Below, in pieces: positions 1 to 14,886 of a stretch of 32,176 bases of DNA. Within the stretch, counting starts at the first letter, position 1. Every line of letters begins with the position of its first letter. A program made the position numbers and the translations under genes. Source of the DNA: Nevskia sp. (lineage in GTDB: Bacteria > Pseudomonadota > Gammaproteobacteria > Nevskiales > Nevskiaceae); the NCBI GenBank assembly GCA_031291075.1, contig JARLJS010000216.1:1-32176 (forward strand), read 5' to 3'. The notes beneath the pieces are model-generated. The model had not been told where the DNA came from and did no database searches. It saw nothing but the letters and a program-made list of their open reading frames with translations.

Positions 1-127
1 CGTCGATCTGCTCGGAGTCGACGAGCTCGGTCAGGTGGTCGGATACCTCCGCGAACGTGAGGTAGCCCTTCTCCTTGCCGAGTGCGATCAGGTTCTTGAT
101 CTGGGATTGCTGGTCGGATGCGCTCAT
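1..127 (-). CDS. rpoD: RNA polymerase sigma factor RpoD, N-terminal fragment
   Basis: This is the first 42 codons of the housekeeping sigma-70 factor, which directs RNA polymerase to most promoters. The gene starts at the ATG read from 127 to 125 and leaves the window at base 1. The peptide begins MSASDQQSQIKNLIALGKEK and continues GYLTFAEVSDHL...DSEQID. This is the sigma region 1.1 pattern (LxxxGKExGYLTxAEVNDHL...VDxEQIED), the autoinhibitory acidic domain of primary sigma factors. In many gammaproteobacteria dnaG lies just upstream of rpoD. Here the upstream gene is a spermidine-synthase-like protein on the same strand, about 100 bp away. Only region 1.1 is visible, so the identification rests on that motif. 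Confidence 0.9.
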   Translation of the reverse strand, partial: MSASDQQSQIKNLIALGKEKGYLTFAEVSDHLTELVDSEQID

Positions 128-230
128 CAACCGTTTCTCATTTTGTGGAACCGACCGAGGAGAGCCAGCTCAGAATAGAAAGTTTCACTACAAGCCCGTC
201 CGAGGGATATCCTCCGAGAGCAGTTCGCGA

Positions 231-1169
231 TCAGGAACGGCGCATGCTGATCATCGCATCGGGCTCGTCGCCACTTGAGCCTAACACCTGCCGCGCATAG
301 CTGCGTTGCAACTTCCGCGCGAAAGCGGGGAAATCGAGACCATGCCGCCGCGCAAGCTTCCTGGCATCGCGCTCGATCACCGACCAGTCCGGCGCACGCC
401 AGGGGTCGTTGAAAGCGAATACCACGCGGTTGCCTTCGGTGGCGACGTTCTGGACGATGACCTGGCCTGGAAATGTATCCGCGATCAGCCGGCGGTGCAT
501 TTTATGGACGTCCGGTGGGCCGACCAGGTTTGCGACGAGGATTCCGCGGGGCTGCAGGCGTGCGCGCAAATTCTGGTAGAAGCGCGGATTGCCGAACTCC
601 GGCGCGATGCCGCACGCATCGCAGCCATCCAGGAGGATGACGTCCGCGCGTTCTTCAGTGGTGGCGAAATACTCCACAGCGTCGGCGTGAACGATCCGCA
701 TCCTTTCGTCTTGCGCCGGGACGTCGAAGAAGTCGCTGAACCCGATCACGTCCTCGTCCTTTTCCACGGTCGTGATCCGGGCGCGGGGAAGCTGGCCGTG
801 GCAGAACTTGGTCAGGGAACCGCCACCCAATCCGACGACGACCACGTGCTTGGGGCGAGGCAGAAACAGCAGAAACCCCATCATCTTCCGCGTATACGCA
901 AGATTCAGGGCATGGGGCTGGTCGAGGCTCATCGCGCTCTGCACGAAGGCGGGGCTGAAGTGGAGGCTCCTGACCGCGCCATCGTCCATCACGAACGGCT
1001 TCGAGTAGTCTCCTTGGCGCAGGCGCGCCTTCAGGTCGTGAACGTCCGCGTCGAGAGGTTCCCTCAGATAGATCTGGCCGTAGCCGTTGAGAACGTCCGC
1101 TGGCACGGCGCACCGAGAGGTGTCCCTGGTCAACGGCGTCTCCGGGGCTGAGCTTGCACTTTCATTCAA
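231..1169 (-). CDS. Spermidine synthase-like (SAM-methyltransferase fold) protein
   Basis: About 312 residues with the fold of spermidine synthases and related SAM-binding enzymes. A strand VVVVGLGGGSLTK (near residues 109-121) is the nucleotide-binding motif I. An acidic residue follows in TTVEKDEDV, and ADVILLDGCDACG forms the loop that carries the catalytic aspartates in true SpeE. In SpeE that loop is normally D-[ST]-x-D-P. Here it reads DGCDACG, so polyamine synthesis is uncertain and the substrate is unknown. The chosen start is a TTG at 1169, ten bases after GGAG. An upstream TTG at 1220 is also in frame, but it would place a perfect 26-bp palindrome inside the first codons. The first ATG lies well inside the conserved part. 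The C-terminus is basic. The gene is followed at about 100 bp by rpoD on the same strand. Confidence 0.7.
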   Translation of the reverse strand: MNESASSAPETPLTRDTSRCAVPADVLNGYGQIYLREPLDADVHDLKARLRQGDYSKPFVMDDGAVRSLHFSPAFVQSAMSLDQPHALNLAYTRKMMGFLLFLPRPKHVVVVGLGGGSLTKFCHGQLPRARITTVEKDEDVIGFSDFFDVPAQDERMRIVHADAVEYFATTEERADVILLDGCDACGIAPEFGNPRFYQNLRARLQPRGILVANLVGPPDVHKMHRRLIADTFPGQVIVQNVATEGNRVVFAFNDPWRAPDWSVIERDARKLARRHGLDFPAFARKLQRSYARQVLGSSGDEPDAMISMRRS

Positions 1170-1192
1170 CGTAATGGTTCTCCAGGGCCGGC

Positions 1193-1218
1193 GCCTCCGG
1201 ACCGCCGGGTCCGGAGGC
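1193..1218. repeat. Perfect 11-bp palindrome with 4-base loop
   Basis: GCCTCCGGACC, a GCCG loop, then GGTCCGGAGGC. The stem is perfect and very GC-rich but has no T-run on either side, so it is not a classical terminator. It lies in the leader of the minus-strand spermidine-synthase-like gene, just upstream of its probable ribosome binding site. It could be a leader hairpin or a protein-binding palindrome. Confidence 0.7.
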
Positions 1219-1465
1219 AAGCTCTTCAGGTTCGCCGCAACTGTCTCAGAACATGGGCCCCGCGCCGATGTGAGCGGGGGCTTCCGCAGGAGTTTATCGG
1301 CACGCTCTCTCGTGGAGGTGGGGGCTGACCGCTTCGGGACCTGCGGGTCGTCACGAAGAGCTGTGAATCGGCTTATCCCGGGGAGCCCGGCCCTGGTTGA
1401 ACGCGATTCCTCCCCACGGGCATTCGGCTCCTGCGCCCAACGAAGAACGTAGACCGCCCATAGGC
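1219..1465. other. Intergenic stretch without a recognisable gene
   Basis: I see no credible coding sequence, RNA gene or terminator here. Together with the palindrome before it and the promoter after it, it makes up the divergent region between the spermidine-synthase-like gene (minus) and the ribbon-helix-helix gene (plus). Confidence 0.5.
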
Positions 1466-1535
1466 TTGACTTATGAGGGTGACATTATCATGCTAAGCGC
1501 CAATTAGTTCAATAACATGATAATAAAATGATAAT
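1466..1535 (+). promoter_or_regulatory. Promoter and repeated operator half-sites of the RHH-GNAT pair
   Basis: A -35-like TTGACT (1466-1471) is followed after 17 bases by a weak -10-like CATGCT (1489-1494). An eight-base motif occurs three times. It is inverted as ATTATCAT at 1484-1491, and direct as ATGATAAT at 1517-1524 and 1528-1535. The first and second copies form a perfect inverted repeat (ATTATCATG/CATGATAAT). The third copy contains the start codon of the ribbon-helix-helix gene. Repeats overlapping the -10 and the start codon are what autoregulation by a small ribbon-helix-helix protein usually looks like. That this protein binds here is inference. Confidence 0.6.
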
Positions 1536-1731
1536 CGAAGAGCGGACCGCCCGGCTCACGATCCTCATTGATCCGCGCAAGAAAGCGGTTCTCGAAAGGC
1601 TGTGCGCGCTGGACGACACGACGCCGTCACGTGTGGTGCGCCAGCTCATCAGGGATTACCTCGAGAAACGCCTGGGGCATCCCTGGAAGCCGCAGGAGAA
1701 CGTGGAGGAAACTCTGCGTGGGAATTTCTAG
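1528..1731 (+). CDS. Ribbon-helix-helix (CopG-like) DNA-binding protein
   Basis: A 67-residue protein. A short N-terminal beta strand (RTARLTILIDPRKKAVLERL) is followed by two helices (ALDDTTPSRVVRQLIRDYLEKRL), the layout of CopG/Arc/MetJ-type regulators, which dimerise through the strand and insert it into the DNA major groove. The start ATG at 1528 lies within the third copy of the ATGATAAT repeat. The stop TAG is directly followed by the GTG of an acetyltransferase gene, so the two are very likely co-transcribed and translationally coupled. A small RHH protein in front of a GNAT enzyme resembles GNAT-type toxin-antitoxin pairs. However, this RHH is shorter than the DUF1778 antitoxins of those systems and may simply be the operon repressor. 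Confidence 0.8.
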   Translation: MIIEERTARLTILIDPRKKAVLERLCALDDTTPSRVVRQLIRDYLEKRLGHPWKPQENVEETLRGNF

Positions 1732-2184
1732 GTGGAACGCCTGATCCGCCCGATGACAGTGGCGGATGTTGCGGCCTGCCTGACCTTGTGGCGGCAGACC
1801 GAGGGCCTGGTGGTGCGCCTGGATTCGGACAACGAGATCGCAGTCACCCGCTTTCTCAAGCGCAACCCGGGCCTGAACTTCGTCGTCAAATCGGACGGCG
1901 AACTGGTCGGCAACGCCTTGTGCGGTTGCGACGGGCGCCGCGGCTACTTGTACCACCTCGCGGTAGCGCGTGGCTTTCGCCGGGAAGGATGCGCTTCCGC
2001 GATGCTGTCGGCGGTGTTCGCCGCGCTCAGGAAGCAGGGCATCACTCGCTGCCATGCTTTCGTTCTTTCGAGCAATCTGACAGCGCAGAAATTCTGGGCC
2101 GGGGTGAACGCGAACCAACGGCAGGATATGCGCGTCATCACGGTCAACGTTGAAGAGGCGGCACTGACGGCCGGCACCGAGTGA
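1732..2184 (+). CDS. GNAT-family N-acetyltransferase
   Basis: A 150-residue acetyltransferase of the GNAT fold, which transfers acetyl from acetyl-CoA to an amine. The acetyl-CoA pyrophosphate-binding motif is R-R-E-G-C-A (residues 83-88, matching [QR]xxGx[GA]) after the strand YLYHLAVA. The C-terminal part has the usual N-x-x-A-x-x-F-W pattern (NLTAQKFW). Overall it looks more like YpeA-type enzymes than like TacT/AtaT toxins. It starts with GTG immediately after the stop of the ribbon-helix-helix gene, with no spacing. The substrate cannot be read from the sequence. A toxin role is possible from the context but not shown. Confidence 0.8.
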   Translation: MERLIRPMTVADVAACLTLWRQTEGLVVRLDSDNEIAVTRFLKRNPGLNFVVKSDGELVGNALCGCDGRRGYLYHLAVARGFRREGCASAMLSAVFAALRKQGITRCHAFVLSSNLTAQKFWAGVNANQRQDMRVITVNVEEAALTAGTE

Positions 2185-2263
2185 CGACGCGAATCGCCGT
2201 CCGGCTGAGCGAGCTATGCGGTGCGGCAATCCATTCATGGATGCGCCCGGCCGGGGTGGCGTG

Positions 2264-2776
2264 ATGGATGCCGCGACATTAAGCGCAGAGGCCCATGCGT
2301 CGCTGTTTGATATCAGGGCCATCATGGGGATGCTCCAGCACCGCTGGCCATTCCTGCTGGTCGACAAGGTGATCGCGTACGAGAAAGGCACATCGCTGAC
2401 CGCCATCAAGAATGTCACTTATAACGAGCCATTCTTCGCCGGTCACTTCCCGTTGCTGCCGACCATGCCCGGGGTGCTGATCCTGGAGTCGATGGCCCAG
2501 GCCTGCGGCCTGTTGGCGTCGCAGGAGCTGGGGCTTAGGTCGGATGCTGGCGTGCTCTACTACTTCGCCGGCATCGACGACGCCCGCTTCAAGCGCATAG
2601 TGGTGCCGGGCGATGTCCTAACCCTGGAAGTGGTGATCGACAAGGTCAAACGCAGCTTGTGGAAGTTCAAGGCCAGGGCAAGTGTCGACGGCGAGCTCGC
2701 CTGTGAAGCCGGCCTGACTTGCGGGATCAAGAATGTTGGCAAGCCGGTCGCGGCCCCGGCACGCGAAGACGCCTGA
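2264..2776 (+). CDS. fabZ: 3-hydroxyacyl-ACP dehydratase FabZ
   Basis: FabZ removes water from (3R)-hydroxyacyl-ACP in fatty-acid elongation. The family hallmarks are present: MLQHRWPFLLVDKV near the start, NEPFFAGHFP with the catalytic His, then PGVLILESMAQACG with the catalytic Glu, and FAGIDDARFKRIVVPGD. The length (about 170 residues) is slightly above the usual 145-155 because of a short C-terminal tail. The chosen ATG follows a GGGGTGG stretch and puts about ten residues before the conserved DIRAIM. An in-frame ATG at 2216 would add 16 non-conserved residues. In most Gram-negative bacteria fabZ sits in the lpxD-fabZ-lpxA cluster. This copy stands alone, so it may be a second or specialised dehydratase. 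Confidence 0.88.
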   Translation: MDAATLSAEAHASLFDIRAIMGMLQHRWPFLLVDKVIAYEKGTSLTAIKNVTYNEPFFAGHFPLLPTMPGVLILESMAQACGLLASQELGLRSDAGVLYYFAGIDDARFKRIVVPGDVLTLEVVIDKVKRSLWKFKARASVDGELACEAGLTCGIKNVGKPVAAPAREDA

Positions 2777-2898
2777 GGACGGGAGCGTCCAGGGCGAGGT
2801 GACGCGAGACCGCTTACCCGAATCCCGGCACAACCCGACCGGACCGGACGCTCATCGAGACGATTTCAATTCACACAACTATTTAAGGACAAACAGAC

Positions 2899-3177
2899 AT
2901 GCTGAAAATCTACGCCGGCAACCTTCCGTCCGATACCACGGAGAAGGAGCTGGCCGAGCTGTTCTCGGCGCATGGCCGGGTGCGGTCGATCAAGTTATCG
3001 CACGACGTGTTTTCCGGTAAATGCCGCGGCTTCGGCTTCATCGAAATGGAAGGGCACGAGGCCCGGGCCGCGATCGCGGCTCTCAACGGCAAGGAGCTAC
3101 GCGGCAATCCTCTGCGCGTCAACCAGGAACGTCCGCGCGATGCGAAAGGGCGCAGCGGTGGCCACCGCCATCACTGA
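2899..3177 (+). CDS. Small RRM-type RNA-binding protein
   Basis: A 92-residue protein with a single RNA recognition motif. RNP2 is KIYAGNLP (residues 3-10) and RNP1 is KCRGFGFIEM (41-50), including the aromatic residues that stack on RNA bases. The core ends with LRGNPLRVNQERPR. The tail is basic and ends in G-G-H-R-H-H. Bacterial single-RRM proteins of this kind are often cold- or stress-linked RNA chaperones. The leader is relatively AT-rich (about 2860-2898) and carries AAGGAC before the ATG. The gene appears to be monocistronic. Its RNA target is unknown. Confidence 0.88.
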   Translation: MLKIYAGNLPSDTTEKELAELFSAHGRVRSIKLSHDVFSGKCRGFGFIEMEGHEARAAIAALNGKELRGNPLRVNQERPRDAKGRSGGHRHH

Positions 3178-3311
3178 GTGCGCTCCCACTTGCGCCGACA
3201 CCGGTGAGCCGCGGCGATATCGAATGGCGTCCGAGGGCATCCGCAGACGTCCTTCCTGCGCTTTCGCAGCGGCGTCGGCAAAGATGCGCGTCACGAAGCA
3301 AACATAACGGG

Positions 3312-3659
3312 CTACAGCGAGCAGGACATCACAAAGTCGTGTTGGCGGGCGATGATGTCGAAGTCAAAGCCATGCTCCAGCCTTGCGCCGATGTCATGGC
3401 TGCTGGTGCGCACGATAGTGCCAATGATTGTTTGCTCTTGGGACCGCAGGAAGTGCACCGTGGCACGGAAGCGTTGGCTAGGGGTGATCTCGCCGCTTCC
3501 GGGCCAAGCAAGGCGGATGCCGTACTCGGAGATATCAAGCACCTCCCACTCACGTGGGCCGATACTCAGAACGGGACGGAGATCGGCCGGATAGTGAAGG
3601 CGATGCTCGACTCGCCGTTCCTTTGTCCTCCATGTTGAGGAAGCGTGTTGTGCGTTCAT
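3312..3659 (-). CDS. PilZ-domain protein
   Basis: A 115-residue PilZ protein. The family binds cyclic di-GMP through two motifs and both are visible: RxxxR within ERRVEHR (Arg16, Arg20) and DxSxxG as DISEYG (residues 42-47), followed by a beta-barrel ending in GARLEHGFDF. There is no further domain, so it is a stand-alone c-di-GMP-responsive adaptor. Such proteins act on motility, pili or exopolysaccharide machinery, but no partner gene lies nearby. It is flanked by about 130 bp (towards the RRM gene) and 260 bp (upstream) in which I see no gene. Confidence 0.87.
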   Translation of the reverse strand: MNAQHASSTWRTKERRVEHRLHYPADLRPVLSIGPREWEVLDISEYGIRLAWPGSGEITPSQRFRATVHFLRSQEQTIIGTIVRTSSHDIGARLEHGFDFDIIARQHDFVMSCSL

Positions 3660-3918
3660 AGCGTAACCTCACTGAGTTTGCGCCAAAGTGATCGAGAGGG
3701 TGAGGCTGGTCGTCCTCAATGATTAGGTTGTCCGCCGCATGCTTAGTCATATCGAACCACGCTGGATTTGGTGCGCTGCGACATAAAGCGTTACCCGCCG
3801 GTATTTGGCTCCAGATTAGACACCCGGGAAGCTCGGAAGTGCTTTGCTCGGTGAGGTGTGAAGTGGAGCGGGAGATACCTTGCTCGACCGAAGCCGTCTT
3901 CACACGAGAGACCTGAAT

Positions 3919-4701
3919 CTATAGAGATCGACGCCTTTCATGGGATCTAATCGAGAGGAACTGGGCGCCGTAGTCATCCGCGAGTACTTGCACGCGCGGT
4001 GCACCGGACTGTGACGCGGAAACAGGGGCGAGGTAGCCGGAGAACTGATCGATTGTTCCGGCGCAGGAGCGTACATAGCTGACGCGATACACTTCACCGG
4101 TGCGGGTGTTGCTGAAGGAGCCTTTGTACATACAGCCCTTGGAGTCTGCTGCCACGAGATCGCCGTTAGCCCGCAGCGTCAAACCCACCCCAAAGCCATC
4201 TGTTTGGTAGCTCCACGTCCCGTTGATCGGTTGGCCCGGCCCTCCAGCCTCGCGGGTGGGCTGAAGCGACAGGCTCTCCCTGTTGCCTTGCCGATCCTCA
4301 ACAGTCGCGTCGAGGCCGGACGGGTAAACATTGCCGGAGACCACGCCCGAGGTTGACCTGGTACCGTCGGCAAATGCACGGTCTGTGGAATAGCCGGCGA
4401 GGTCACCACGGAGCGCTCGGCCGGCGGCGTCAAGCGTCAGGCGGTAATAGGTTCCATCCTGGGCGGCCATCCTGCCATCGCCGTTGTTTCCGAATATCGC
4501 AACGACCGGAGTCCGCTGTCCGCTGCTATCGCCGCCGAGCGTGCCGCGATAGAGCGCATCAGGGGGATAACAAGCGGAATAGCTGGCGCAGCCGCTGCCC
4601 CCGTAGTAGTAGTAAGTGCCGCCGCTGTGGCCTCCGCAGCCGACCAGGATCGTACCGCTGGTAACCACGATGGCGGGCACGGTATGACGTCGATGGGGCA
4701 T
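3919..4701 (-). CDS. Putative lipoprotein of unknown function
   Basis: 260 residues. The N-terminus (MPHRRHTVPAIVVTSG, then TILVGCGG) is a lipoprotein signal peptide: basic start, hydrophobic core and an LVGC lipobox, so the mature protein should be anchored through Cys23. The mature part begins with a Gly/Tyr-rich linker. It continues with beta-rich repeats of the style GTYYRLTLDAAGRALRGDL, NGTWSYQTDGFGVGLTLRANGDL and GCMYKGSFSNTRTGEVYRVSY, suggesting a small beta-barrel or sandwich. I do not recognise the family. The ATG at 4701 is preceded by GGGGAGAG. A longer in-frame extension to 4962 is rejected because it runs antisense through a cytochrome P460 remnant. The ribosome binding site straddles the inferred inversion breakpoint at 4710/4711, so the native promoter may have been replaced. 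Confidence 0.7.
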   Translation of the reverse strand: MPHRRHTVPAIVVTSGTILVGCGGHSGGTYYYYGGSGCASYSACYPPDALYRGTLGGDSSGQRTPVVAIFGNNGDGRMAAQDGTYYRLTLDAAGRALRGDLAGYSTDRAFADGTRSTSGVVSGNVYPSGLDATVEDRQGNRESLSLQPTREAGGPGQPINGTWSYQTDGFGVGLTLRANGDLVAADSKGCMYKGSFSNTRTGEVYRVSYVRSCAGTIDQFSGYLAPVSASQSGAPRVQVLADDYGAQFLSIRSHERRRSL

Positions 4702-4710
4702 GACACTCTC

Positions 4711-5013
4711 CCCGACGGCGCCAAAATGGCGAAGATCCATTGGATCCCGAAGAAGAACGAATCGGCCCCGGGCCAGCCACTGGTGGCCGGCACGCTCCAT
4801 GATGTTGACTTCATGGAGAAGGATAGTAAGAGGTTCGCGGACAGCGGCGGATGGGGATATGCCGAGTTTGAATATGACACCGCGTCCGACACGTTCAGGC
4901 CCGGCACACTGGCGGATCTGCCGCCACAGGGAAACGACGCCAAGTGCGGGTTCGCGTGCCACACGCTGGCGAAGAAGCAGGACTACGTTTTTACGGAGTA
5001 CCCCAAGAGGTGA
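4711..5013 (+). pseudogene. Cytochrome P460, C-terminal half (displaced)
   Basis: One hundred codons starting at PDGAKMAKIHW and ending DYVFTEYPKR. They include DSKRFADSGGWGYAEFEYD and the haem-c motif C-G-F-A-C-H. These are the hallmarks of the second half of cytochrome P460-family proteins, periplasmic c-type haem proteins linked to hydroxylamine or NO detoxification. There is no signal peptide, start codon or first half on this strand. The reading frame to the left runs antisense into the lipoprotein gene. The missing N-terminal half lies at 5597-5839 on the opposite strand. Confidence 0.85.
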
Positions 5014-5596
5014 CGTCTTGTCTGTTGCTCCGGCGATCTAGTCCGAAGCAGCCTTTTTCCACGCCCTGAAGCGGCCACGAAAGCATGGCAATAAAGGTCA
5101 ACGCCAAAGCTCCTCCGGCTTGGCAGCGCAATCGAGCGGCAAGCTGATCTGTGGCGCCCGCAGAAAGCGCGCCGGACAAGCTTGCGAGAGCATAAGCTGA
5201 TGCGTGGGGAGATGGCGTAACGCTGCCCAATATAATCCAACCAATTCAATGACTTAGTCTTTACCGTCCCACCCCTTGGGCCCCAACGGGCACGTTTGCG
5301 TGCCGCAGGACACCAAGCCCTGGGGCAAGCCGCGACAGCGAAACCCCGGCGCACGCCCGCAAGCGCAACCATGCCATCTGTGTGTGCCGCGCGCTTTCCC
5401 GCTTCGGCCATCTCGGCCAGACTCACGAATTTGTCACGGGATTCGAATCAGCATTGATTTTCCCGTTCGCTCGACGCATTTAGGTGAGAGGACAACATTG
5501 GTCCGCTGCGGAATATCGCAGCTCCGCAGCGTGGGTTGAGGCGCTGTAGTGCCGTGCTTCCCGATGGAAGTCCAGGCTGCCTTGCTCGCCAACGGA
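4711..5596. other. Inferred inverted segment splitting the P460 gene
   Basis: If this 886-bp segment is turned round, the codons at 4711 onward join the minus-strand codons ending at 5597. The junction reads G-N-G-K-P-F/P-D-G-A-K-M-A-K, in frame, giving an intact P460 of 181 residues with signal peptide. Apart from the P460 half, the segment (5014-5596) contains no gene I can recognise, only a small hairpin at 5289-5304. A five-base inverted microhomology (TCTCC at 4707-4711, GGAGA at 5594-5598) lies at the breakpoints. I see no long inverted repeats and no recombinase gene. Exact breakpoints are uncertain by a few bases. Confidence 0.7.
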
Positions 5597-5839
5597 GAAA
5601 GGCTTGCCGTTACCTGGAACACCGGCCTTGTAGGCGTCGATCATCGCGGGGTTCCCGAGGATCACGGCAATCTTGCCTCCATTCTGACTGAGGGAAATCG
5701 TCTGCCAGCCTTCGTATCCCCTGAACTCGGAGAACGCGAGCCCATTCGGCACTTCGAGGGCGTACCTGTCCTGGGCGCAGGCCAGGCCACTGGCGGCCAC
5801 CAGCGCGGCGGCGGACAACAGCTTCTTGAAGTTGCTCAT
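5480..5839 (-). pseudogene. Cytochrome P460, N-terminal half
   Basis: This begins at an ATG (5839) behind a good ribosome binding site (AGGAGAGC). The signal peptide is MSNFKKLLSAAALVAASG followed by LACA, cleaved before QDRY. P460-type sequence follows: VPNGLAFSEFRGYEGWQTIS, then ILGNPAMIDAYKAGVPGNGKPF. Similarity stops at Phe81 (5597). The remaining 38 codons (SVGEQGSLDF...) are unrelated and run to a stop at 5480. The haem-binding half is missing, so this product cannot be a functional P460. The promoter region upstream (5840-6045) looks otherwise empty. Confidence 0.85.
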
Positions 5840-6045
5840 GTGAGCTCTCCTGATGTCGTGAAGAAAGCGGCACTCAGCCCGCCCGCTCATCGAATGTTCT
5901 CGGCTGGAACCAAGCGGATGCCGGCCTCCGTACGAGACACACGATAGGCGCATCATGGAGTGTCTGCAATGTCACATATGCAACATTTTAGGACATGACC
6001 GGGGCGCCTGCGCAACGCATCGGAATGGCGGTGTACCCGGGCTAG

Positions 6046-6699
6046 AGTTCAGCGGCAGGCCTGTGGCACCTCGACGAGAAGCGCGTGGGCCGGCTGCCGG
6101 CCACGCAGGCCTTCATCAACTACGCCTATTTCGACGAGGCCCGCCTGTTCGACCGCGGCAGCGTCAACGGCTACATCGTCAACGTCGACCAGCCCGGCCA
6201 TGCCGACCGGGTCAGCGCTGCGATCGATGCCCTGTTCGCCAATTCCTCCGCGCCCACCCGTACGCAGAGCGAGCAGACCTTCAAGCTCAACATCCTGCGG
6301 CGCATCGGCGATATCGGCCTGATCGTGGGCGCCGTTCTGGGCGCGGTGCTGTTCACGCTGCTGCTGGTGGCCGGCAACACCATGGTCCAGGCCTTCCGCG
6401 AGCGGATTCCGGAGCTGGGCGTGCTCAAGACCATCGGTTTCACGGATGGCGCGGTGGCCCTGCTGTTCGTCACCGAGTCCTTGCTGCTGGTTGCCGCCGG
6501 CGCGGCGCTCGGGCTGGGCCTTGATGCGGTGCTGATTCCGCAACTGTTCAAGCAGGCGTTTGGGGCGCCGGCACCCATGCCGGTGGAGACGCTGCTGACG
6601 GGTGGCGCCTCTGCGCTGGTCATCGCCGTGGCCGTGGCCCTGATCCCAGCCTGGCGCGCGAGCCGGCTGAGCGTGGTCGAAGCCCTGGCCGTGCCGTGA
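6046..6699 (+). pseudogene. ABC transporter permease (FtsX/MacB type), 5'-truncated
   Basis: This is the C-terminal half of an ABC exporter permease: the end of the periplasmic domain (LPATQAFINYAYFDEARLFD), then the FtsX core. The core has a membrane segment (IGLIVGAVLGAVLFTLLLVA), the coupling loop FRERIPELGVLKTIGF, and two more membrane segments ending ALIPAWRASRLSVVEALAVP. The frame is open from 6046, directly after an in-frame TAG, and the first 40-50% of a normal permease of about 380 residues, with its first membrane helix, is absent. A GTG at 6085 could start translation but would make only a fragment. The stop overlaps the GTG of the next permease gene, as in an intact two-permease operon. 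The ATPase gene usually found upstream is also missing. Confidence 0.85.
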
Positions 6700-7877
6700 A
6701 AACGATCCTGCGGCTGGCGGCGATGAACCTGCGCAGCCTGCCGGCGCGCTGGAGCGCCTCGCTGGTGCTGGTGATCAGCCTGGCTGGCGTGGTCGGGGTG
6801 ATGGTGTCGGTGCTGGCCATGGCCGCCGGCTTCCAGAAGGTGTTCGCCGACAGCGCCCGGCCCGACCGCGTGGTGATCCTGCGCAGCGGCGCGCGCAGCG
6901 AGAACGAGAGCCAGATCACGCGCGACGAGGCCGACACCCTGGTGGCGCTGCCCGGCTTGGCCCTTCTGCCCGGTGGCGGGCCGCTGGCCTCGGCGGAGCT
7001 GTACTACGGCTCGGCGCTGTCGCGAAAAGGCTCCGGGGAGGAGGGTGGCGTCACCATCCGCGGCGTGGGGCCGCAGGCATTTGCGGTGCGCCCCGAAGTG
7101 AAGATCATCGCCGGCCGGCTGTTCACGCCGGGCCTGCGGGAGGTGATCGTCGGCGCGGCGGCGCAACGCGGCTTCGCCGGGCTGGAGCTGGGCGGCACCG
7201 TGGCGCTGAGCAACGTGGCATGGACCGTCGTCGGCGTGTTCGAGACTGGCGGTGATCTGCACGAAACGGAGATCTGGACCGACCTCGCCACCGCCCAGTC
7301 GGCGTTCCAGCGCGAGAACGTGAACACCATCACCGCCCGCCTGGCCTCCATCGCGGCATTCGCCGCCTACAAGGACGCGGTCACCACCAATCCGGCGCTC
7401 GACCACGAGGTGCTGCACGAGCGCGACTTCTACGCCCTGCAAACCGAGACCACCAGCGGCGTGATCCGGGTCTTCGGCTACACCATCGCCGGCATCATGG
7501 CCCTGGGCGCGCTGTTCAGTGCCGTCAACACCTTGTTCTCCGCAGTCCGTGCGCGCCAGGTGGAGATTGCGACCCTGCGCGCGCTCGGCTTCGGCGCCGC
7601 CCCGGTCCTCTGCTCCGTGCTGATCGAAGCGCTGGTCCTGGCCCTGTTCGGCGCGAGCCTGGGCGGACTGGCGGCATATCTGCTGTTCGACGGTTTCAGC
7701 GCCTCCACCATAGGAGGGGACTTCAGCAGCGATGTGATGTTCCAGTTCCGGGTGACGCCCAGGCTGTTGCTGCAGGGTGTGCTGTGGGCGACGGCAGTGG
7801 GCCTGCTCGGCGGAGTGCCGCCGGCCGTGCGGGCGGCGCGGCTGCCTGTGGCGGACGCGTTGTGCGCCCACAAGTAG
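6696..7877 (+). CDS. ABC transporter permease (FtsX/MacB type)
   Basis: 393 residues and complete. It has an N-terminal membrane helix (SLVLVISLAGVVGVMVSVLA), a MacB-like periplasmic domain of about 220 residues, then the FtsX core with three membrane helices. The cytoplasmic coupling loop is VRARQVEIATLRALGFG and the end is PPAVRAARLPVADALCA. Such permeases work in pairs with an MJ0796/LolD-type ATPase, moving lipids, peptides or drugs out of the inner membrane. The GTG start overlaps the previous stop by four bases. Because its partner permease is truncated and no ATPase is present here, the system is probably inactive unless subunits are supplied from elsewhere. Confidence 0.87.
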   Translation: MKTILRLAAMNLRSLPARWSASLVLVISLAGVVGVMVSVLAMAAGFQKVFADSARPDRVVILRSGARSENESQITRDEADTLVALPGLALLPGGGPLASAELYYGSALSRKGSGEEGGVTIRGVGPQAFAVRPEVKIIAGRLFTPGLREVIVGAAAQRGFAGLELGGTVALSNVAWTVVGVFETGGDLHETEIWTDLATAQSAFQRENVNTITARLASIAAFAAYKDAVTTNPALDHEVLHERDFYALQTETTSGVIRVFGYTIAGIMALGALFSAVNTLFSAVRARQVEIATLRALGFGAAPVLCSVLIEALVLALFGASLGGLAAYLLFDGFSASTIGGDFSSDVMFQFRVTPRLLLQGVLWATAVGLLGGVPPAVRAARLPVADALCAHK

Positions 7878-7978
7878 GCGGCTTGGGCTGCGGCAAGGAA
7901 ACCGCGCCCGGCGCTGGTTTCGATCCGGGCGTGCCGCTGTTACATTCGGCGGACTCGAAATATCACAGGAGGATTTTC

Positions 7979-8404
7979 ATGAAACTGGAAGGTGGCTGCT
8001 ACTGCGGCCAGGTGCGTTACGAAGCGACCGGCGAGCCGATGATGCGCGGCCAATGCCATTGCCGCGAATGCCAGTACATCAGCGGTGGCGGCCCCAACAT
8101 GTTCATGCTGATGCCGCTCGACGGTTTCCGTTACACCCGGGGCGAGCCGAAGCGCTTCACCCGCACCGACCTCGACGAGCCGGTCACGCGCGAGTTCTGC
8201 GGCGAGTGTGGCACCCACCTGACCACCCGGCGGCCGGGTCTGCCGGCGGTGATCGTGAAGGTGGGGACGTTGGACGAGCCGGCCCTGTACGGCGGGCCGC
8301 AGATGGTGATCTACACGGTGGACAAACAGCCGTTCCACCTGATCCCGGACGGCCTGCCGACGTTCGAACGGCTGCCGGACCAACGGCGCCCGGCCACCCG
8401 TTAG
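7979..8404 (+). CDS. GFA-family (glutathione-dependent formaldehyde-activating-like) protein
   Basis: 141 residues of the GFA/DUF636 family, small zinc proteins named after an enzyme reported to help formaldehyde react with glutathione. Most members have unknown substrates. The zinc-binding cysteines are all visible: GGCYCGQVRYEA (Cys7, Cys9), GQCHCRECQ (Cys27, Cys29, Cys32) and EFCGECGTHL. The ATG follows a strong ribosome binding site (CAGGAGGATTTTC). The gene is separated from the ABC permease by about 100 bp and runs convergent with a small minus-strand gene. Confidence 0.88.
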   Translation: MKLEGGCYCGQVRYEATGEPMMRGQCHCRECQYISGGGPNMFMLMPLDGFRYTRGEPKRFTRTDLDEPVTREFCGECGTHLTTRRPGLPAVIVKVGTLDEPALYGGPQMVIYTVDKQPFHLIPDGLPTFERLPDQRRPATR

Positions 8405-8429
8405 AAGGGTACGCTATCGCGCCGGCGTT

Positions 8430-8624
8430 TCAGTGCGGGCGGCGCGGGGCCTTGGCGGCAGCCCGCGATGCCTTCTTTCCCGGCGGCGGTTCGGTGCCTG
8501 TTACCGAATTGCGCTCGCGCTCGCGCAGCGCTACGGCGATGAAGAACGCTTCCGCCTCTTCGCGCGTGTTGAAGGTGTAGTCGCCGCGGTCCGTCTTCAC
8601 GGTGTTATGGATCAAGGTGCGCAT
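8430..8624 (-). CDS. Small basic protein of unknown function
   Basis: A 64-residue protein. The folded-looking part is RTLIHNTVKTDRGDYTFNTR, then EEAEAFFIAVALRERER. A basic, Ala/Pro/Lys-rich tail follows (PGKKASRAAAKAPRRPH). The ATG is preceded by AAGGAGG at ideal distance, and a sigma-70-like promoter lies at 8658-8686, so I take it as a real gene despite its size. The tail resembles nucleic-acid-binding tails, but I do not recognise the family. Confidence 0.6.
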   Translation of the reverse strand: MRTLIHNTVKTDRGDYTFNTREEAEAFFIAVALRERERNSVTGTEPPPGKKASRAAAKAPRRPH

Positions 8625-8657
8625 GACCGGCCTCCTTGCAACGCATATACAGCGATC

Positions 8658-8686
8658 ACAATGAACCCGAAGCATGATCCGGTCAA
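8658..8686 (-). promoter_or_regulatory. Candidate sigma-70 promoter of the small basic protein gene
   Basis: On the minus strand TTGACC (8686-8681), 17 bases, then CATTGT (8663-8658). The -35 matches five of six consensus bases and the -10 three of six. It lies about 35 bp upstream of the start codon. Confidence 0.4.
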
Positions 8687-8819
8687 TTGAAAATCCCCGC
8701 CCGGCGGGAGCCGACGGCGCGTCCGGCCGGGAAAGGTTGACGATCCGCTCCATGGAGTGGCAAATAGTCCGTATGAATCAGCGACATGAAGCAGCGCAGC
8801 CGCGCGCGGGGGCAGCATC

Positions 8820-9473
8820 TTGAGCGAGCCCGCCATTCCCGGCTCGATCTGGATCGTCTCCGCCCCCAGCGGGGCCGGCAAGACCAGCCTGACCCGCGCC
8901 CTGGTGGAGCGGCTCGGCCAGCGTGGCGTGCCGGCCGCCATCTCAGTGTCCTACACCACCCGCGCGCCGCGCGTGGGTGAGGTGGATGGCACTCATTACC
9001 ACTTCGTCGACGACGCCCGCTTCCTGGCAATGGTCGAGGCGGGGGAATTCCTGGAGCATGCCGACGTATTCGGCCGGCGCTACGGTACCGGCATGGCGGA
9101 GACCGACCGCCAGCTGGCCGCCGGCACCGAGCTGCTGCTGGACATCGACTGGCAGGGTGCCCGCCAGATCAAGGGCCGCCGTCCCGGCGCGCTGGGCGTG
9201 TTCGTGCTGCCGCCCTCGGCGGCGGAGCTGGAGCGGCGCCTGCGCGGGCGCGGCCAGGATGACCCGGCGGTCATCGCCCAGCGGATGGCGGCGGCCCGGG
9301 CCGAGATGAGCCACTTCGCCGAGTACGACTACCTGATCGTCAACGACGACTTCGAGCGCGCCCTGGACGAGCTGCAGACGCTGGTGCTGGCGCGCCGGCT
9401 GCGGCTGCCGGCGCAGCAACTCCGCCATGCCGACCTGCTGGGCGGCCTGCTGGCCGCGAATGGCGTCGAATGA
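8820..9473 (+). CDS. gmk: Guanylate kinase
   Basis: Converts GMP and ATP to GDP and ADP. 217 residues, normal length. The P-loop is APSGAGKT (residues 15-22). The GMP-binding region follows with SVSYTTRAPRVGEVDGTHYHF and GEFLEHADVFGRRYGT, then LLLDIDWQGARQI and the lid region with RLRGRGQDD. The start is a TTG with GGGGG seven bases upstream. It is the only start codon between the upstream in-frame stop and the P-loop. A -35-like TTGACG at 8737 may belong to its promoter. The gene is followed by rpoZ and spoT, the usual gammaproteobacterial order linking guanine nucleotide supply, RNA polymerase and (p)ppGpp. Confidence 0.95.
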   Translation: MSEPAIPGSIWIVSAPSGAGKTSLTRALVERLGQRGVPAAISVSYTTRAPRVGEVDGTHYHFVDDARFLAMVEAGEFLEHADVFGRRYGTGMAETDRQLAAGTELLLDIDWQGARQIKGRRPGALGVFVLPPSAAELERRLRGRGQDDPAVIAQRMAAARAEMSHFAEYDYLIVNDDFERALDELQTLVLARRLRLPAQQLRHADLLGGLLAANGVE

Positions 9474-9520
9474 CCCGACGCCCGTCGGGCAGGTGGCCGG
9501 GCGGAAAGGGCGCGGCACCC

Positions 9521-9549
9521 TGGCCGACCGGCCCGCGGTGGGCTATAAT
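9521..9549 (+). promoter_or_regulatory. Promoter of rpoZ
   Basis: A perfect -10 TATAAT (9544-9549) lies 34 bases before the rpoZ ATG. The -35 17 bases upstream is weak (TGGCCG). It implies that rpoZ is transcribed separately from gmk. Confidence 0.6.
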
Positions 9550-9582
9550 TCCAGTCTTCACAAGCTTTCCCGCAGGTAACTC

Positions 9583-9846
9583 ATGGCACGCGTCACCGTC
9601 GAAGATTGTCTGGCCCGCATCCCCAACCAGTTCGAGTTGACCCTGGTCGCCGCCAAGCGCGCGCGCCAGCTCGCGCGCGGCGCCGAGGCCCGGCTGCCGT
9701 GGGGGAGCCACAAATCGACGGTGCTGTCGCTGAAAGAGATCGCCGACGGCTATGTCGACACCTCCGTGCTGAGCGAGGCCGACCTGCCGGCGATCCAGCA
9801 GCCCAAGATGGAGCTCGAAGCGCTCGACCCGAGCTTCGACCTCTGA
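9583..9846 (+). CDS. rpoZ: RNA polymerase omega subunit
   Basis: 87 residues. It begins MARVTVEDCLARIPNQFELT and continues VAAKRARQL, the signature of the omega subunit, which wraps the C-terminus of beta-prime and helps assembly and the ppGpp response. The conserved KSTVLSLKEIADGYVD follows, where many omegas have KxTVxALREIxxG. It has its own promoter and a rho-independent terminator 43 bp after the stop. Confidence 0.96.
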   Translation: MARVTVEDCLARIPNQFELTLVAAKRARQLARGAEARLPWGSHKSTVLSLKEIADGYVDTSVLSEADLPAIQQPKMELEALDPSFDL

Positions 9847-9888
9847 GCCACAGCCGGCGGGCTTGCCCGCCGCCGCTGCCGCAACAAG

Positions 9889-9911
9889 AAAGGGCCGGAA
9901 GGCCCTTTTTT
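9889..9911 (+). terminator. Rho-independent terminator after rpoZ
   Basis: Stem AAAGGGCC/GGCCCTTT with a GGAA loop, running into six T residues. The element is correctly placed after rpoZ and separates it from spoT. Confidence 0.88.
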
Positions 9912-9959
9912 GTTGGGCAATAGTACTTACCGGCGCGCAGTCCGGGCGGCCGGAACTGG

Positions 9960-9979
9960 ATTCCCGCCCGGGCGGGAAT
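9960..9979. repeat. Short dispersed palindrome (ATTCCCGC...GCGGGAAT)
   Basis: A perfect 20-bp palindrome ATTCCCGCCCGGGCGGGAAT, flanked by CTGG and GACA. It belongs to the same family as three copies near 15.5 kb (common pattern GTCATTCC-hairpin-GGAATCCAG). Such REP-like palindromes are scattered between genes in many proteobacteria. Confidence 0.75.
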
Positions 9980-10031
9980 GACAATGGGCTAAAGGGGGAG
10001 GTGGACGCACCGCCGCGGTGCGGGCCCAGTC

Positions 10032-10037
10032 TATACT
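10032..10037 (+). promoter_or_regulatory. -10 element close to the spoT start
   Basis: TATACT lies only six bases before the spoT ATG and no ribosome binding site is visible. If used, transcription would start at or next to the ATG. No good -35 is seen. Confidence 0.35.
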
Positions 10038-10043
10038 GCATTC

Positions 10044-12212
10044 ATGGAATTCCCGGTCATCCAGCGCATCGGCACCGCTCTCCGCACCCAGCGCGTGGCG
10101 CGCGAGTACGGCATCGAGGCCTTGTGCCGCGTGCTGCAGGAATACCTGCCTGAAGACCAGATCGCCGAGGTGCGGCGCGCCTACGAGTTCGGCGCGCGCA
10201 TGCACTCCGGCCAGGCGCGCGAATCGGGCGAGCCTTACATCTACCACCCGCTGGCGGTGGCGCGGATCCTGGCCGAGATGCGGCTGGACGTGACCACCCT
10301 GTGCGCCGCGATCCTGCACGACGTGATCGAGGACACCGCGGTCGAGAAGTCGGAGATCGCCAAGCACTTCGGCAAGGACGTGGCCGAGCTGGTGGACGGC
10401 GTCAGCAAGTTCCACAAGGTGGAAGGCATGACGCGCACCGAGCAGCAGGCGGAGAGCGTGCGCAAGCTGCTGCTGGCGATGGCGCAGGATCTGCGCGTGA
10501 TCCTGGTCAAGCTGGCCGACCGCCTGCACAACGCGCGCACGCTGGAAGGGGTGGAGCCGGCCAAGCGCCGCCGGGTGGCGCGCGAGACGCTGGAGATCTA
10601 CGCTCCCATCGCGCAGCGCCTGGGCATCAACACCTTGCGCAACGAGCTGGAGGACCTCAGCTTCCTCAACCTTCACCCCAAGCGCTACAGCGTGTTCCAG
10701 CGCGCGGTGAACGAGCGCCTGGGTGACACCAAGAGCCTGATCAAGGAGACCGAGCACAAGCTGGAGCGCGCCCTGCGCGAGGAGGGCATCGGCGCCTCGG
10801 TGGTCGGCCGCCAGAAGAACCTCTACGGCATCTACGAGAAGATGCAGCGCAAGCGCCTGCGCTTCCTCGACGTGATGGACCTGCTCGGCTTCCGCATCAT
10901 CGTCGCCAAGGTGGATGACTGCTACCGCGCGCTGGGCGTGGTGCACCACGTCTACCGGCCGATCTCCGAGCTGTTCAATGACTTCATCGCCAACCCCAAG
11001 GTCAACGGCTACCAGTCGCTGCACACCACCTGCGTCGGCGCGCAGGGGCGCAAGATCGAGGTGCAGATCCGCACCCGCGACATGCACCACATCGCCGAGA
11101 GCGGCATCGCCGCCCACTGGCAGTACAAGCTGGGCGGCCGCACCGACCCCGGTTCCGCGCCGCAGGTGCGCGCGCGCGAATGGCTGGGCAACCTGTTCGA
11201 GATGCAGGGCGGCTCGGGCGCGCTGGACTTCATCGAGAACGTCAAGGTCGACCTGTTCCCGGACGAGGTCTACGTGTTCACGCCCAAGGGCCAGATCCGC
11301 CGCCTGCCGCGCGGCGCCACCGCGGTGGACTTCGCCTACTCGGTGCACTCCGAGCTGGGCGACCACTGCGTGGCGGCGCGCATCGACCAGCAGCTCGAGC
11401 CACTCAACACCCCGCTCAAGAACGGGCAGACGGTGGAGATCATCACCGCCCGCCACGCCCGCCCCAACGCCGCCTGGCTCAACTACGTCAAGACCGCCAA
11501 GGCGCGCTCGCACATCCGCAATTTTCTGAAGAATCAGCGCGAGGACGAGGCCATCCGCCTCGGCCGACGGCTGCTGGAGATCGCCCTGCGTGAGCTCCAT
11601 GTGCCGCTGTCCTCCCTCAAGGAAGGCGCGGCCGAATCGGTGCTGAAGGCCTTCAACCTGCAAGACATGGAAGACCTCTTCATCTCCATCGGCACCGGCG
11701 CGCGGCTGGCGCCGCTGGTGGCGCGCCACTTCCTGCCCAATCCAGACCAGGCCCACGTGTCGGGCGAAAGCGTGCCGCTGGCGGTGGAAGGCACCGAAGG
11801 GCTGGTCCTCGACTACGCCAAGTGCTGCCACCCGATCCCGGGAGACGACATCTGCGGCTACGTCAGCGTCGGCCGCGGCATCGTCATCCACCGGCTCGAA
11901 TGCAAGCACGTGCAGACCCGCAAGGGCGGCCCGCTGGAGCGCGTGCCGCTGGTCTGGTCGGAGAAGGTGCAGGGCGACTTCCTCGCCGAGCTGCGCCTCA
12001 AGGCCGAGAACCGCCGCGGCCTGCTGGCGGTGGTGGCCGGCGAGATTTCCAGCTCCGGCGCCAGCATCGAGAACGTGCAGATGCCGGAACGCGACGGTTC
12101 CGAGGCGCTGGAGATGCGCTTCGTCATCACCGTGCGCGACCGCGTGCACCTGGCGCGCGTGTTGCGTCGTCTGCGCCGGCTGCCGGCGGTGCAGCGCGTG
12201 TTCCGGGTCTGA
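10044..12212 (+). CDS. spoT: Bifunctional (p)ppGpp synthase/hydrolase SpoT
   Basis: 722 residues. The HD hydrolase domain has YIYHPLAVARIL, AAILHDVIEDT (His92-Asp93) and VKLADRLHNARTL. The synthetase domain has RQKNLYGIYEKM, DLLGFRIIV and NGYQSLHT. It is followed by a TGS domain (DEVYVFTPKGQIRRLPRGAT), a zinc-finger-like region (AKCCHPIPGDDICGYVSVGR) and a C-terminal ACT domain. The intact HD motif shows it can degrade (p)ppGpp. It makes or destroys the alarmone in response to starvation. The first 25 residues before ALCRVLQEYLP are not typical, and a GTG at 10095 is an alternative start. It lies downstream of rpoZ and upstream of ridA and recG. Confidence 0.95.
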   Translation: MEFPVIQRIGTALRTQRVAREYGIEALCRVLQEYLPEDQIAEVRRAYEFGARMHSGQARESGEPYIYHPLAVARILAEMRLDVTTLCAAILHDVIEDTAVEKSEIAKHFGKDVAELVDGVSKFHKVEGMTRTEQQAESVRKLLLAMAQDLRVILVKLADRLHNARTLEGVEPAKRRRVARETLEIYAPIAQRLGINTLRNELEDLSFLNLHPKRYSVFQRAVNERLGDTKSLIKETEHKLERALREEGIGASVVGRQKNLYGIYEKMQRKRLRFLDVMDLLGFRIIVAKVDDCYRALGVVHHVYRPISELFNDFIANPKVNGYQSLHTTCVGAQGRKIEVQIRTRDMHHIAESGIAAHWQYKLGGRTDPGSAPQVRAREWLGNLFEMQGGSGALDFIENVKVDLFPDEVYVFTPKGQIRRLPRGATAVDFAYSVHSELGDHCVAARIDQQLEPLNTPLKNGQTVEIITARHARPNAAWLNYVKTAKARSHIRNFLKNQREDEAIRLGRRLLEIALRELHVPLSSLKEGAAESVLKAFNLQDMEDLFISIGTGARLAPLVARHFLPNPDQAHVSGESVPLAVEGTEGLVLDYAKCCHPIPGDDICGYVSVGRGIVIHRLECKHVQTRKGGPLERVPLVWSEKVQGDFLAELRLKAENRRGLLAVVAGEISSSGASIENVQMPERDGSEALEMRFVITVRDRVHLARVLRRLRRLPAVQRVFRV

Positions 12213-12798: not shown

Positions 12799-14886
12799 GT
12801 GGCCCGCGTCGTCAGCGGCGGCAAGCCGCCAGTCACGCTTGCCACCGACGTCACCTATCTGAAGGGTGCCGGACCGGCGATCGCGACGCGGCTGCGCGCG
12901 CTCGGCATCGAACGGGTGCAGGACCTGCTGTTCCACCTGCCCAGCCGTTACGAGGACCGGCGGCGCATCGTGCCGCTGGTGGAACTGCGCGACGGCGACG
13001 AGGCGCTGGTGCGCGGCCGCGTGGTGGGCGCCGACGTGCGCTTCGCCGGGCGGCGCAGCCTGCGGGTGGTGATCGACGACGGCGGCAGCAGCCTGCTGCT
13101 GCGTTTCTTCCATTTCAACGACACGCAGAAGCAGGCCTTCACCGAGGGGCGCTGGGTGCGTGCCTACGGCACCGTGCGCACCGGCGCCAACGGCCTGGAG
13201 ATGGTGCACCCGGAATACCGCGTCGCCGACGACCCGGCGCAGCTGCCGCCGGACACCGCGCTCACCCCGCTCTATCCGCTGGCCACCGGCGTCACCCAGC
13301 AGCGCCTGCGCGGCCTGATCCAGCAGGCGCTGCAGGCCGCCGCGCGCGACCCGGCCTTTCTCGCCGAGCTGCCCGGCCTGGCGCCGCCGGACACGCTGAG
13401 CGCGCTACGCGTGCTGCACGAACCCGCCGGCACCGACCTTGGCGACCTGCTGCTGCAGCGCCATCCGGCGCAGCTGCGCCTGCTGCGCGAGGAGCTGCTG
13501 GCGCACCAGCTGTGCATGCGCCTGCTGCGTCGGCGCACCTTGGCCCAGCCCGGCGCCCGCGTCGAGCATGTGCTGCCCGCCTCGGCGCGGCTGCAGGAAA
13601 CGCTGCCCTTCGCCCTCACCGGCGCACAGCGCCGCGTGATCGGCGAGATCGCCCACGACCTCGCCTCCGGTAAGCCGATGCTGCGGCTGCTGCAGGGCGA
13701 CGTCGGCTGCGGCAAGACCGTGGTGGCCGCCGCCGCCATGCTGGGCTGCGCCCTGGGCGGATTGCAGGCGGTGCTGATGGCGCCGACCGAGCTGCTGGCC
13801 GAGCAGCACGCGCACAACCTCACCGCCATGCTCAACGCGGTGGGCGTGGAGGTCGGCATGTTGTCCGGCCGCATGAAGAAGGCCGAGCGCGAGGCGGCGC
13901 TGGCGCGCGCCCTGCGCGGCGACATCCGCGTGTGGGTGGGTACCCACGCGCTGTTCCAGTCCGACGTGCGCTTCGCCCGCCTGGGGCTGGTGGTGGTGGA
14001 TGAACAGCACCGCTTCGGCGTCGGCCAGCGGCTGGCGCTGCGCGACAAGGGCCCGCGGGGCGTCACCCCGCACCAGCTCATCATGTCGGCCACACCGATC
14101 CCGCGCACCCTGGCGCAGACCCTCTACGCCGATCTCGACGTCTCGGTGATCGACGAGCTGCCACCGGGCCGCAGCCCGGTGCAGACGGTCGCCCTGTCCA
14201 ACGAGCGCCGACCCGAAGTGCTGGAGCGCATCGGCGAGGCCTGCCGCTCCGGTCGGCAGGCGTATTGGGTCTGCACCCTGATCGAGGACTCCGACCAGCT
14301 GCAGGCGCAGGCCGCCGAGGAAACCTACCGCCAGCTGCGCACCGAGCTGCCCGAGCTGCACGTCGGCCTGGTGCACGGCCGCCTAAAGTCGCCGGAAAAA
14401 GATGCCCAGATGCGCGCCTTCCAGAACGGCGCCACCCAGCTCCTGGTCGCCACCACCGTGATCGAAGTGGGTGTGGACGTGCCCAACGCCAGCATCATGA
14501 TCATCGACAACGCCGAACGCCTCGGCCTTGCCCAGCTCCACCAGTTGCGTGGCCGTGTCGGCCGCGGCACCGCCGCCAGCCAGTGCGTGCTGATGTACCA
14601 GGCGCCGCTGTCCGAGGCGGCGCGCACCCGGCTGGAAGTCATGCGCACGACGCATGACGGGTTCAAGATCGCCCAGCACGACCTGGAACTGCGCGGCCCG
14701 GGCGAACTCCTCGGGCGGCGCCAGACCGGGCTGATTGGCTTGAAGATCGCCGATCCGGTGCGGGATGCGGAGCAGATCCCCGGCTTGCAGAAGCTGGCGG
14801 ACCGCTGGCTGTCGGCATCGCAGGCGGAGGCGAGGATTGTGATTGCGAGGTGGGTGGGGGATGCGGAGAAGTATGCGCAGGTTTGA
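12799..14886 (+). CDS. recG: ATP-dependent DNA helicase RecG
   Basis: 695 residues, normal length. RecG remodels stalled replication forks and Holliday junctions. The N-terminal wedge domain (VTYLKGAGPAIATRLRALGI...DLLFHLPSRYEDRR) is followed by the helicase core. The core has Walker A GDVGCGKTVVA, the DEQHRFGV box, SATPIPRTLA, ATTVIEVGVDVPNA and QLRGRVGRG, and ends with the TRG-type motif GPGELLGRRQTG. The start must be the GTG at 12799, since an in-frame TAA lies directly before it. No ribosome binding site is visible: the region upstream is the right arm of the heptamer element. That arm could fold with its partner in the mRNA and hide the start. Confidence 0.95.
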   Translation: MARVVSGGKPPVTLATDVTYLKGAGPAIATRLRALGIERVQDLLFHLPSRYEDRRRIVPLVELRDGDEALVRGRVVGADVRFAGRRSLRVVIDDGGSSLLLRFFHFNDTQKQAFTEGRWVRAYGTVRTGANGLEMVHPEYRVADDPAQLPPDTALTPLYPLATGVTQQRLRGLIQQALQAAARDPAFLAELPGLAPPDTLSALRVLHEPAGTDLGDLLLQRHPAQLRLLREELLAHQLCMRLLRRRTLAQPGARVEHVLPASARLQETLPFALTGAQRRVIGEIAHDLASGKPMLRLLQGDVGCGKTVVAAAAMLGCALGGLQAVLMAPTELLAEQHAHNLTAMLNAVGVEVGMLSGRMKKAEREAALARALRGDIRVWVGTHALFQSDVRFARLGLVVVDEQHRFGVGQRLALRDKGPRGVTPHQLIMSATPIPRTLAQTLYADLDVSVIDELPPGRSPVQTVALSNERRPEVLERIGEACRSGRQAYWVCTLIEDSDQLQAQAAEETYRQLRTELPELHVGLVHGRLKSPEKDAQMRAFQNGATQLLVATTVIEVGVDVPNASIMIIDNAERLGLAQLHQLRGRVGRGTAASQCVLMYQAPLSEAARTRLEVMRTTHDGFKIAQHDLELRGPGELLGRRQTGLIGLKIADPVRDAEQIPGLQKLADRWLSASQAEARIVIARWVGDAEKYAQV

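Follow-up and report, generated by a model that had tools for sequence, protein, structure and literature searches.

The window analysed here is the whole of contig C101 (32,176 bases) from a draft Nevskia genome (G000; 5.65 Mb in 302 contigs, estimated to be 96.9% complete). It holds a cytochrome P460 gene in two parts that lie on opposite strands. On one side they are followed by a predicted lipoprotein gene, and on the other by a short upstream stretch, an apparent regulator start and the C-terminal half of an ABC permease gene (Table 1).

Table 1. Features of the split cytochrome P460 locus, in window coordinates
Feature	Position	Strand	Length	Description and basis
Predicted lipoprotein gene	3919-4701	minus	260 aa	ORF; lipobox-like ILVGCGG (by eye)
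Left breakpoint (4710/4711)	4703-4720			Inside the lipoprotein ribosome site; junction sequences, flank comparison
Cytochrome P460, C part	4711-5013	plus	100 residues and stop	Begins PDGAKMAKIHW; heme motif CGFACH, equivalents of the cross-link lysine and distal acid
Flipped segment	4711-5596		886 bp	Turning it round joins the P460 parts in frame
Stretch between P460 and lipoprotein gene if turned back	5014-5596		583 bp	
Right breakpoint (5596/5597)	5589-5604			Junction sequences, flank comparison
Cytochrome P460, N part	5839-5597	minus	residues 1-81	ORF; start codon, ends GNGKPF; the frame then continues into the flipped segment
Stretch upstream of P460	5917-5995	minus	79 bp	83% identical to G000:C23:18445-18522
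Apparent start of a divergent AraC/GlxA-type regulator	5995-6045	plus	16 codons	MTGAPAQRIGMAVYPG, stop at 6043-6045
MacB/FtsX-type ABC permease, C-terminal half	6058-6699	plus		Pfam FtsX; N-terminal half missing

The original prediction held that the two P460 parts would be joined in frame if the segment between the breakpoints were turned round, and its coordinates and frames are right. The parts join at Phe81/Pro82 with no codon lost or gained, and the alignment runs through the join without a gap. Compared alone with the Pfam Cytochrome_P460 profile (PF16694), the C part matches profile positions 42-125 (E 7.5e-23, 81.7 bits, cut-off 27) and the N part matches positions 2-38 at a level below the same curated cut-off (E 0.0063, 17.3 bits). 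The two stretches of the profile are complementary. The N part has, by eye, a signal-peptide-like start. One orientation of the flipped segment is present in the assembly; a 1501-bp query found neither the other orientation nor a second copy of the P460 locus elsewhere in the genome, returning only itself and a 79-bp stretch on contig C23.

For comparison, 64 homologous loci were collected by a contig scan (L045 was dropped as a duplicate of L075, which was added). They come from Bradyrhizobium, Rhodospirillales, Acidobacteria and others. A distant P460-like match with similarity to the C part only (L079, G012:C469) was left out. Both P460 parts lie on the same strand in all 64 loci and are inverted in none, and in 59 of them the parts are in one frame and exactly adjacent. 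In the other five (L012, L070, L072, L073 and L074) the parts are in different frames; frameshifts, be they genuine or introduced by sequencing, are thus not uncommon in P460. The 59 loci with adjacent parts in one frame, together with the joined protein of the window, form an alignment of 60 rows, in which position 81 is occupied by Phe (55 rows) or Val (5 rows) and position 82 by Pro throughout. Among relatives, the comparison that the original prediction had proposed gave a whole gene of 181 aa in the other Nevskia genome, G012 (contig C40). The gene occurs in 2 of the 85 genomes of the order, its own included (E 1e-20), and the one other has it whole. Since it is this rare in the order while the 64 loci span many groups, the gene looks acquired and dispensable. 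Among 72,556 plasmid records, three match the P460 locus, solely within the two P460 parts, and one of these matches is annotated as a cytochrome P460 family protein.

Alignment to Methylococcus capsulatus McP460 (PDB 6hiu) places equivalents of Lys78 and Asp102 in the window protein. The cross-link lysine is Lys in 60/60 rows and the distal acid is Asp in 57/60, the window having both. According to the available portion of PMC11928373, these two residues accompany hydroxylamine oxidation in McP460 and NeP460. The heme motif of the window protein is CGFACH, that is, CX3CH and not CXXCH. The same spacing is found in all 60 rows, and CX3CH is a property of this P460 branch and not of the broken gene. 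Ten of the 60 rows also hold CX2CH elsewhere in the frame. Neither a start nor a signal is evident in the C part; the export signal belongs to the N part, which lacks the heme site, the cross-link lysine and the distal acid. With these elements divided between the two parts, the P460 product has probably been lost.

The predicted lipoprotein matches no Pfam or NCBIfam model. Its relatives (a paralogue in the same genome, G002 and G016) are 31-34% identical and are found in 3 of the 58 genomes of the family, its own included (E 1e-10). Within the 64 P460 loci it has only chance-level matches, in three of them (E 0.5-0.8). A synteny test of the lipoprotein-side junction was dropped, as neither these distant relatives nor the chance-level matches gave a usable homologue. 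In both orientations the lipoprotein gene lies downstream of the P460 start and on the same strand. The inversion alters the 583 bp between the two, which bears out the view that it swaps the upstream region of the lipoprotein. Likewise, its ribosome binding site does straddle the left breakpoint and is usable both ways. On the minus strand, the sequence before its ATG (4701-4699) is now GTCGGG/GAGAGTGTCATG; with the segment in the opposite orientation it would be AACGGA/GAGAGTGTCATG (the slash marks the cut). A GGAG lies 6 nt before the ATG now and would lie 8 nt before it after turning. The ribosome site would thus be kept, while any promoter or terminator in the flipped 583 bp would now face the opposite way, and lipoprotein expression may have been changed by the inversion. 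A scan of 4600-6150 gave one promoter-like match (plus strand, 4700-4727, across the left breakpoint; 0.4 in shuffles) and one terminator-like match (1.3 in shuffles), neither of which we count as evidence. Rfam had no match in positions 1-12000 of the window.

The 79-bp stretch upstream of P460 has its C23 counterpart between a gene for an SDR-type reductase and one for an AraC/GlxA-type regulator, which form a divergent pair. Among NCBIfam models FtrA fits that regulator best, with a score of 213 bits where the cut-off is 425. An operator-like 27-base word, GTCCTAAAANGTTGCATATGTGACATT, occurs with at most 3 mismatches at two sites of the genome only, one in each of the two stretches (a control pattern gave none), and may serve as the operator for a regulon with two members. 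The codons that begin at 5995 resemble the start of the C23 regulator, MLRTAIVLYPGF. As this putative regulator start has a basis of 16 codons, it is less certain than the truncation of the permease. A regulator beside P460 does not appear to be a conserved feature, with a match to the C23 regulator in one of the 64 loci (L060).

The permease has an open frame of 217 aa, compared with at least 384 aa in 23 other matches of the genus (E up to 1.8e-45). By tblastn coordinates, 4 of 14 relatives align to it from 6064 on, and the others start further in. Its N-terminal half was sought in the same genome with one query from a relative, which matched two paralogues on contig C113 only (E up to 0.01). 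A translocation at this place, as opposed to a deletion or insertion, was considered and rejected: besides that permease query, one regulator query (E up to 1e-8) returned itself and three distant relatives of 26-32% identity. The second permease gene, at 6696-7877, is complete, and none of the genes beside the permease genes was recognised as coding for an ATPase. Apparently, then, a truncated regulator-like start has become joined to a truncated permease at 6045-6058, about 450 bp from the P460 inversion and at the edge of DNA of lower G+C content (61.1% in 1-6042, 68.1% from 6058 to the end of the window). One of the larger G+C steps of the window lies near 6180, and equally large ones lie near 14,460 and 16,220. 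This second scar may have arisen by deletion, mark the border of an acquired segment or stem from a chimeric join in the contig. The P460 locus itself is probably decaying and situated at the margin of acquired DNA. With apparently truncated gene(s) at 5995-6699, a decaying or newly assembled locus fits better than a regulated one.

The original prediction also called the event recent. From residue 21 onward the alignment has 48 near-invariant columns (at least 95% agreement among the other rows), and the joined P460 of the window keeps all 48, the 59 other proteins departing from them 1.0 times on average and 9 times at most. By rough arithmetic, had free mutation brought about 3% substitutions per site, zero changes in these 144 nt would be unlikely (about 5%). 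The absence of decay suggests that the event is recent, or that the cell still has an intact gene, which would make the split an artefact or a switch.

In the case of an artefact of assembly or amplification, chimeric molecules or a wrong contig would have produced the split, P460 would be whole in the organism and the G+C step and truncated permease at about 6050 might reflect a chimeric join too. The assembly is a draft in 302 contigs, neither P460 part has decayed and the G+C content steps at the second scar, all of which would suit this explanation. Moreover, amplification chimeras are described in the available portion of PMC1855051 as mostly inverted, with joins that often show 2-21 nt of complementarity. 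However, the same text describes intervening deletions in such chimeras, and the P460 junction that can be compared lost nothing. In addition, an artefact requires a pair of false junctions that both fall on the same two points, the words common to the ends are too short for a repeat-driven misjoin, and the window contains no N. We consider an artefact unlikely, though the most probable of the alternatives to a single accidental inversion.

The breakpoints themselves offer little homology. The plus strand at 4710/4711 reads ACACTCTC/CCCGACGG and the minus strand at 5597/5596 reads AGCCTTTC/TCCGTTGG. In register, the ends have TC in common before the cut and CCG in common one base after it. Within 15 bases of the cuts, the longest word that the ends have in common measures 5 nt, a length that half of random pairs reach. 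The 5-bp inverted homology noted originally, TCTCC, is indeed in both ends, but it was rejected as the crossover, since it is offset by 2 nt from the register of the in-frame join and a crossover there would shift the P460 frame. A search of 4500-6000 gave 24 inverted pairs, of which not one links the two breakpoints. In-register similarity of the ends was compared with that of 20,000 random pairs at 11 sizes, the fractions being uncorrected and non-independent. With ends of 2, 3, 4, 5 and 6 bases on each side, 3/4, 4/6, 6/8, 7/10 and 7/12 positions match (random fractions 0.063, 0.047, 0.0065, 0.0054 and 0.021). With 8, 10, 13, 15, 20 and 30 bases, the matches are 10/16, 12/20, 12/26, 14/30, 15/40 and 18/60 (0.0031, 0.0022, 0.029, 0.017, 0.10 and 0.33). 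The 12/20 similarity is a weak lead only.

A phase-variation switch had been thought conceivable, in which an invertase flips the segment back and forth, toggling P460 and giving the lipoprotein a different upstream region. The inversion is exact, frame-preserving and apparently recent, the lipoprotein ribosome site is usable either way and the ends are 12/20 similar, as such an inverton might have them. However, inverted repeats of 10-40 nt are expected of invertons, as far as the available portion of PMC11892184 goes, and no such pair joins the P460 breakpoints. Recombinases were sought in the whole genome as matches to two families: there are three Resolvase matches (PF00239; contigs C211, C96 and C103) and 17 Phage_integrase matches (PF00589; 16 of them above the cut-off), but none on C101. 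Moreover, in the 64 homologous loci the P460 parts adjoin each other, exactly or almost, and are never inverted, the assembly holds a single orientation and the adjoining genes look truncated. On this evidence the idea of a phase-variable inverton is not supported, and we regard it as very unlikely.

Serine recombinases can use a 2-bp non-palindromic core with little further identity. Theoretically, a serine recombinase could thus have carried out a one-off site-specific inversion between two sites that resemble each other weakly and share a TC core. The 12/20 similarity of the ends and the Resolvase-family matches in the genome would agree with it; on the other hand, all three matches are on contigs other than C101, no dyad symmetry is visible by eye, and a shared core of at least 2 bp is expected by simple arithmetic at about one in six random junctions. 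We give this event only a slight chance. The chance is equally slight for a repeat-poor switch, in which a recombinase acting at the TC core of the 12/20 sites would reversibly toggle P460 and swap the upstream region of the lipoprotein.

We favour, with a probability of about 0.7, a single recent conservative inversion of 886 bp, with ends sharing only TC, that cut an acquired and dispensable P460 gene between codons 81 and 82. In the assembly the gene is split, its parts join exactly, its homologues are whole, its conserved columns are free of decay and a truncated permease adjoins it. The mechanism would most likely be illegitimate recombination, given that the shared core at the ends is only 2 bp. 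Some observations count against such an accident. First, the in-register similarity of the ends exceeds that of most random pairs (6/8, fraction 0.0065; 12/20, fraction 0.0022), which would also be expected of a site-specific event. Second, the genome has both serine and tyrosine recombinase matches. Third, the absence of P460 decay also fits a gene that is whole in the cell, as with an artefact or a switch. Finally, the exact join is established on the P460 side, the lipoprotein-side junction having no homologue for comparison.

If a single accidental inversion is the right reading, the locus shows very cleanly how an inversion whose ends share almost no homology can break a gene. Finders of inverted repeats would miss such an inversion, and gene callers would give two unrelated fragments. 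The literature matches listed contained no report of homology-free short inversions in bacteria, and a search for Nevskia with cytochrome P460 found none.

The window can be compared with three known systems. With cytochrome P460 (PF16694; McP460, PDB 6hiu) it shares one profile, covered by two complementary stretches, and the Lys78 and Asp102 equivalents. In contrast to McP460, the window gene is split and inverted, and its heme motif is CX3CH where that of McP460 is CX2CH. With invertons, as described in the available portion of PMC11892184, it shares an exact inversion that alters both a coding region and the upstream region of a neighbour; unlike them it lacks inverted repeats 10-40 nt long, the recombinase matches of the genome lie on other contigs and a single orientation is seen. 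If the segment does flip, it would represent a type of switch invisible to repeat-based searches. Pseudogenes produced by illegitimate short inversions are known in kind, and the window resembles them in that an accessory gene is broken by inversion and a neighbour is truncated too. The break in P460, which is real as far as the assembly goes, is ordinary in this sense. It differs from such pseudogenes in being unusually clean: the junction that can be compared lost no codon, and neither part has been damaged further.
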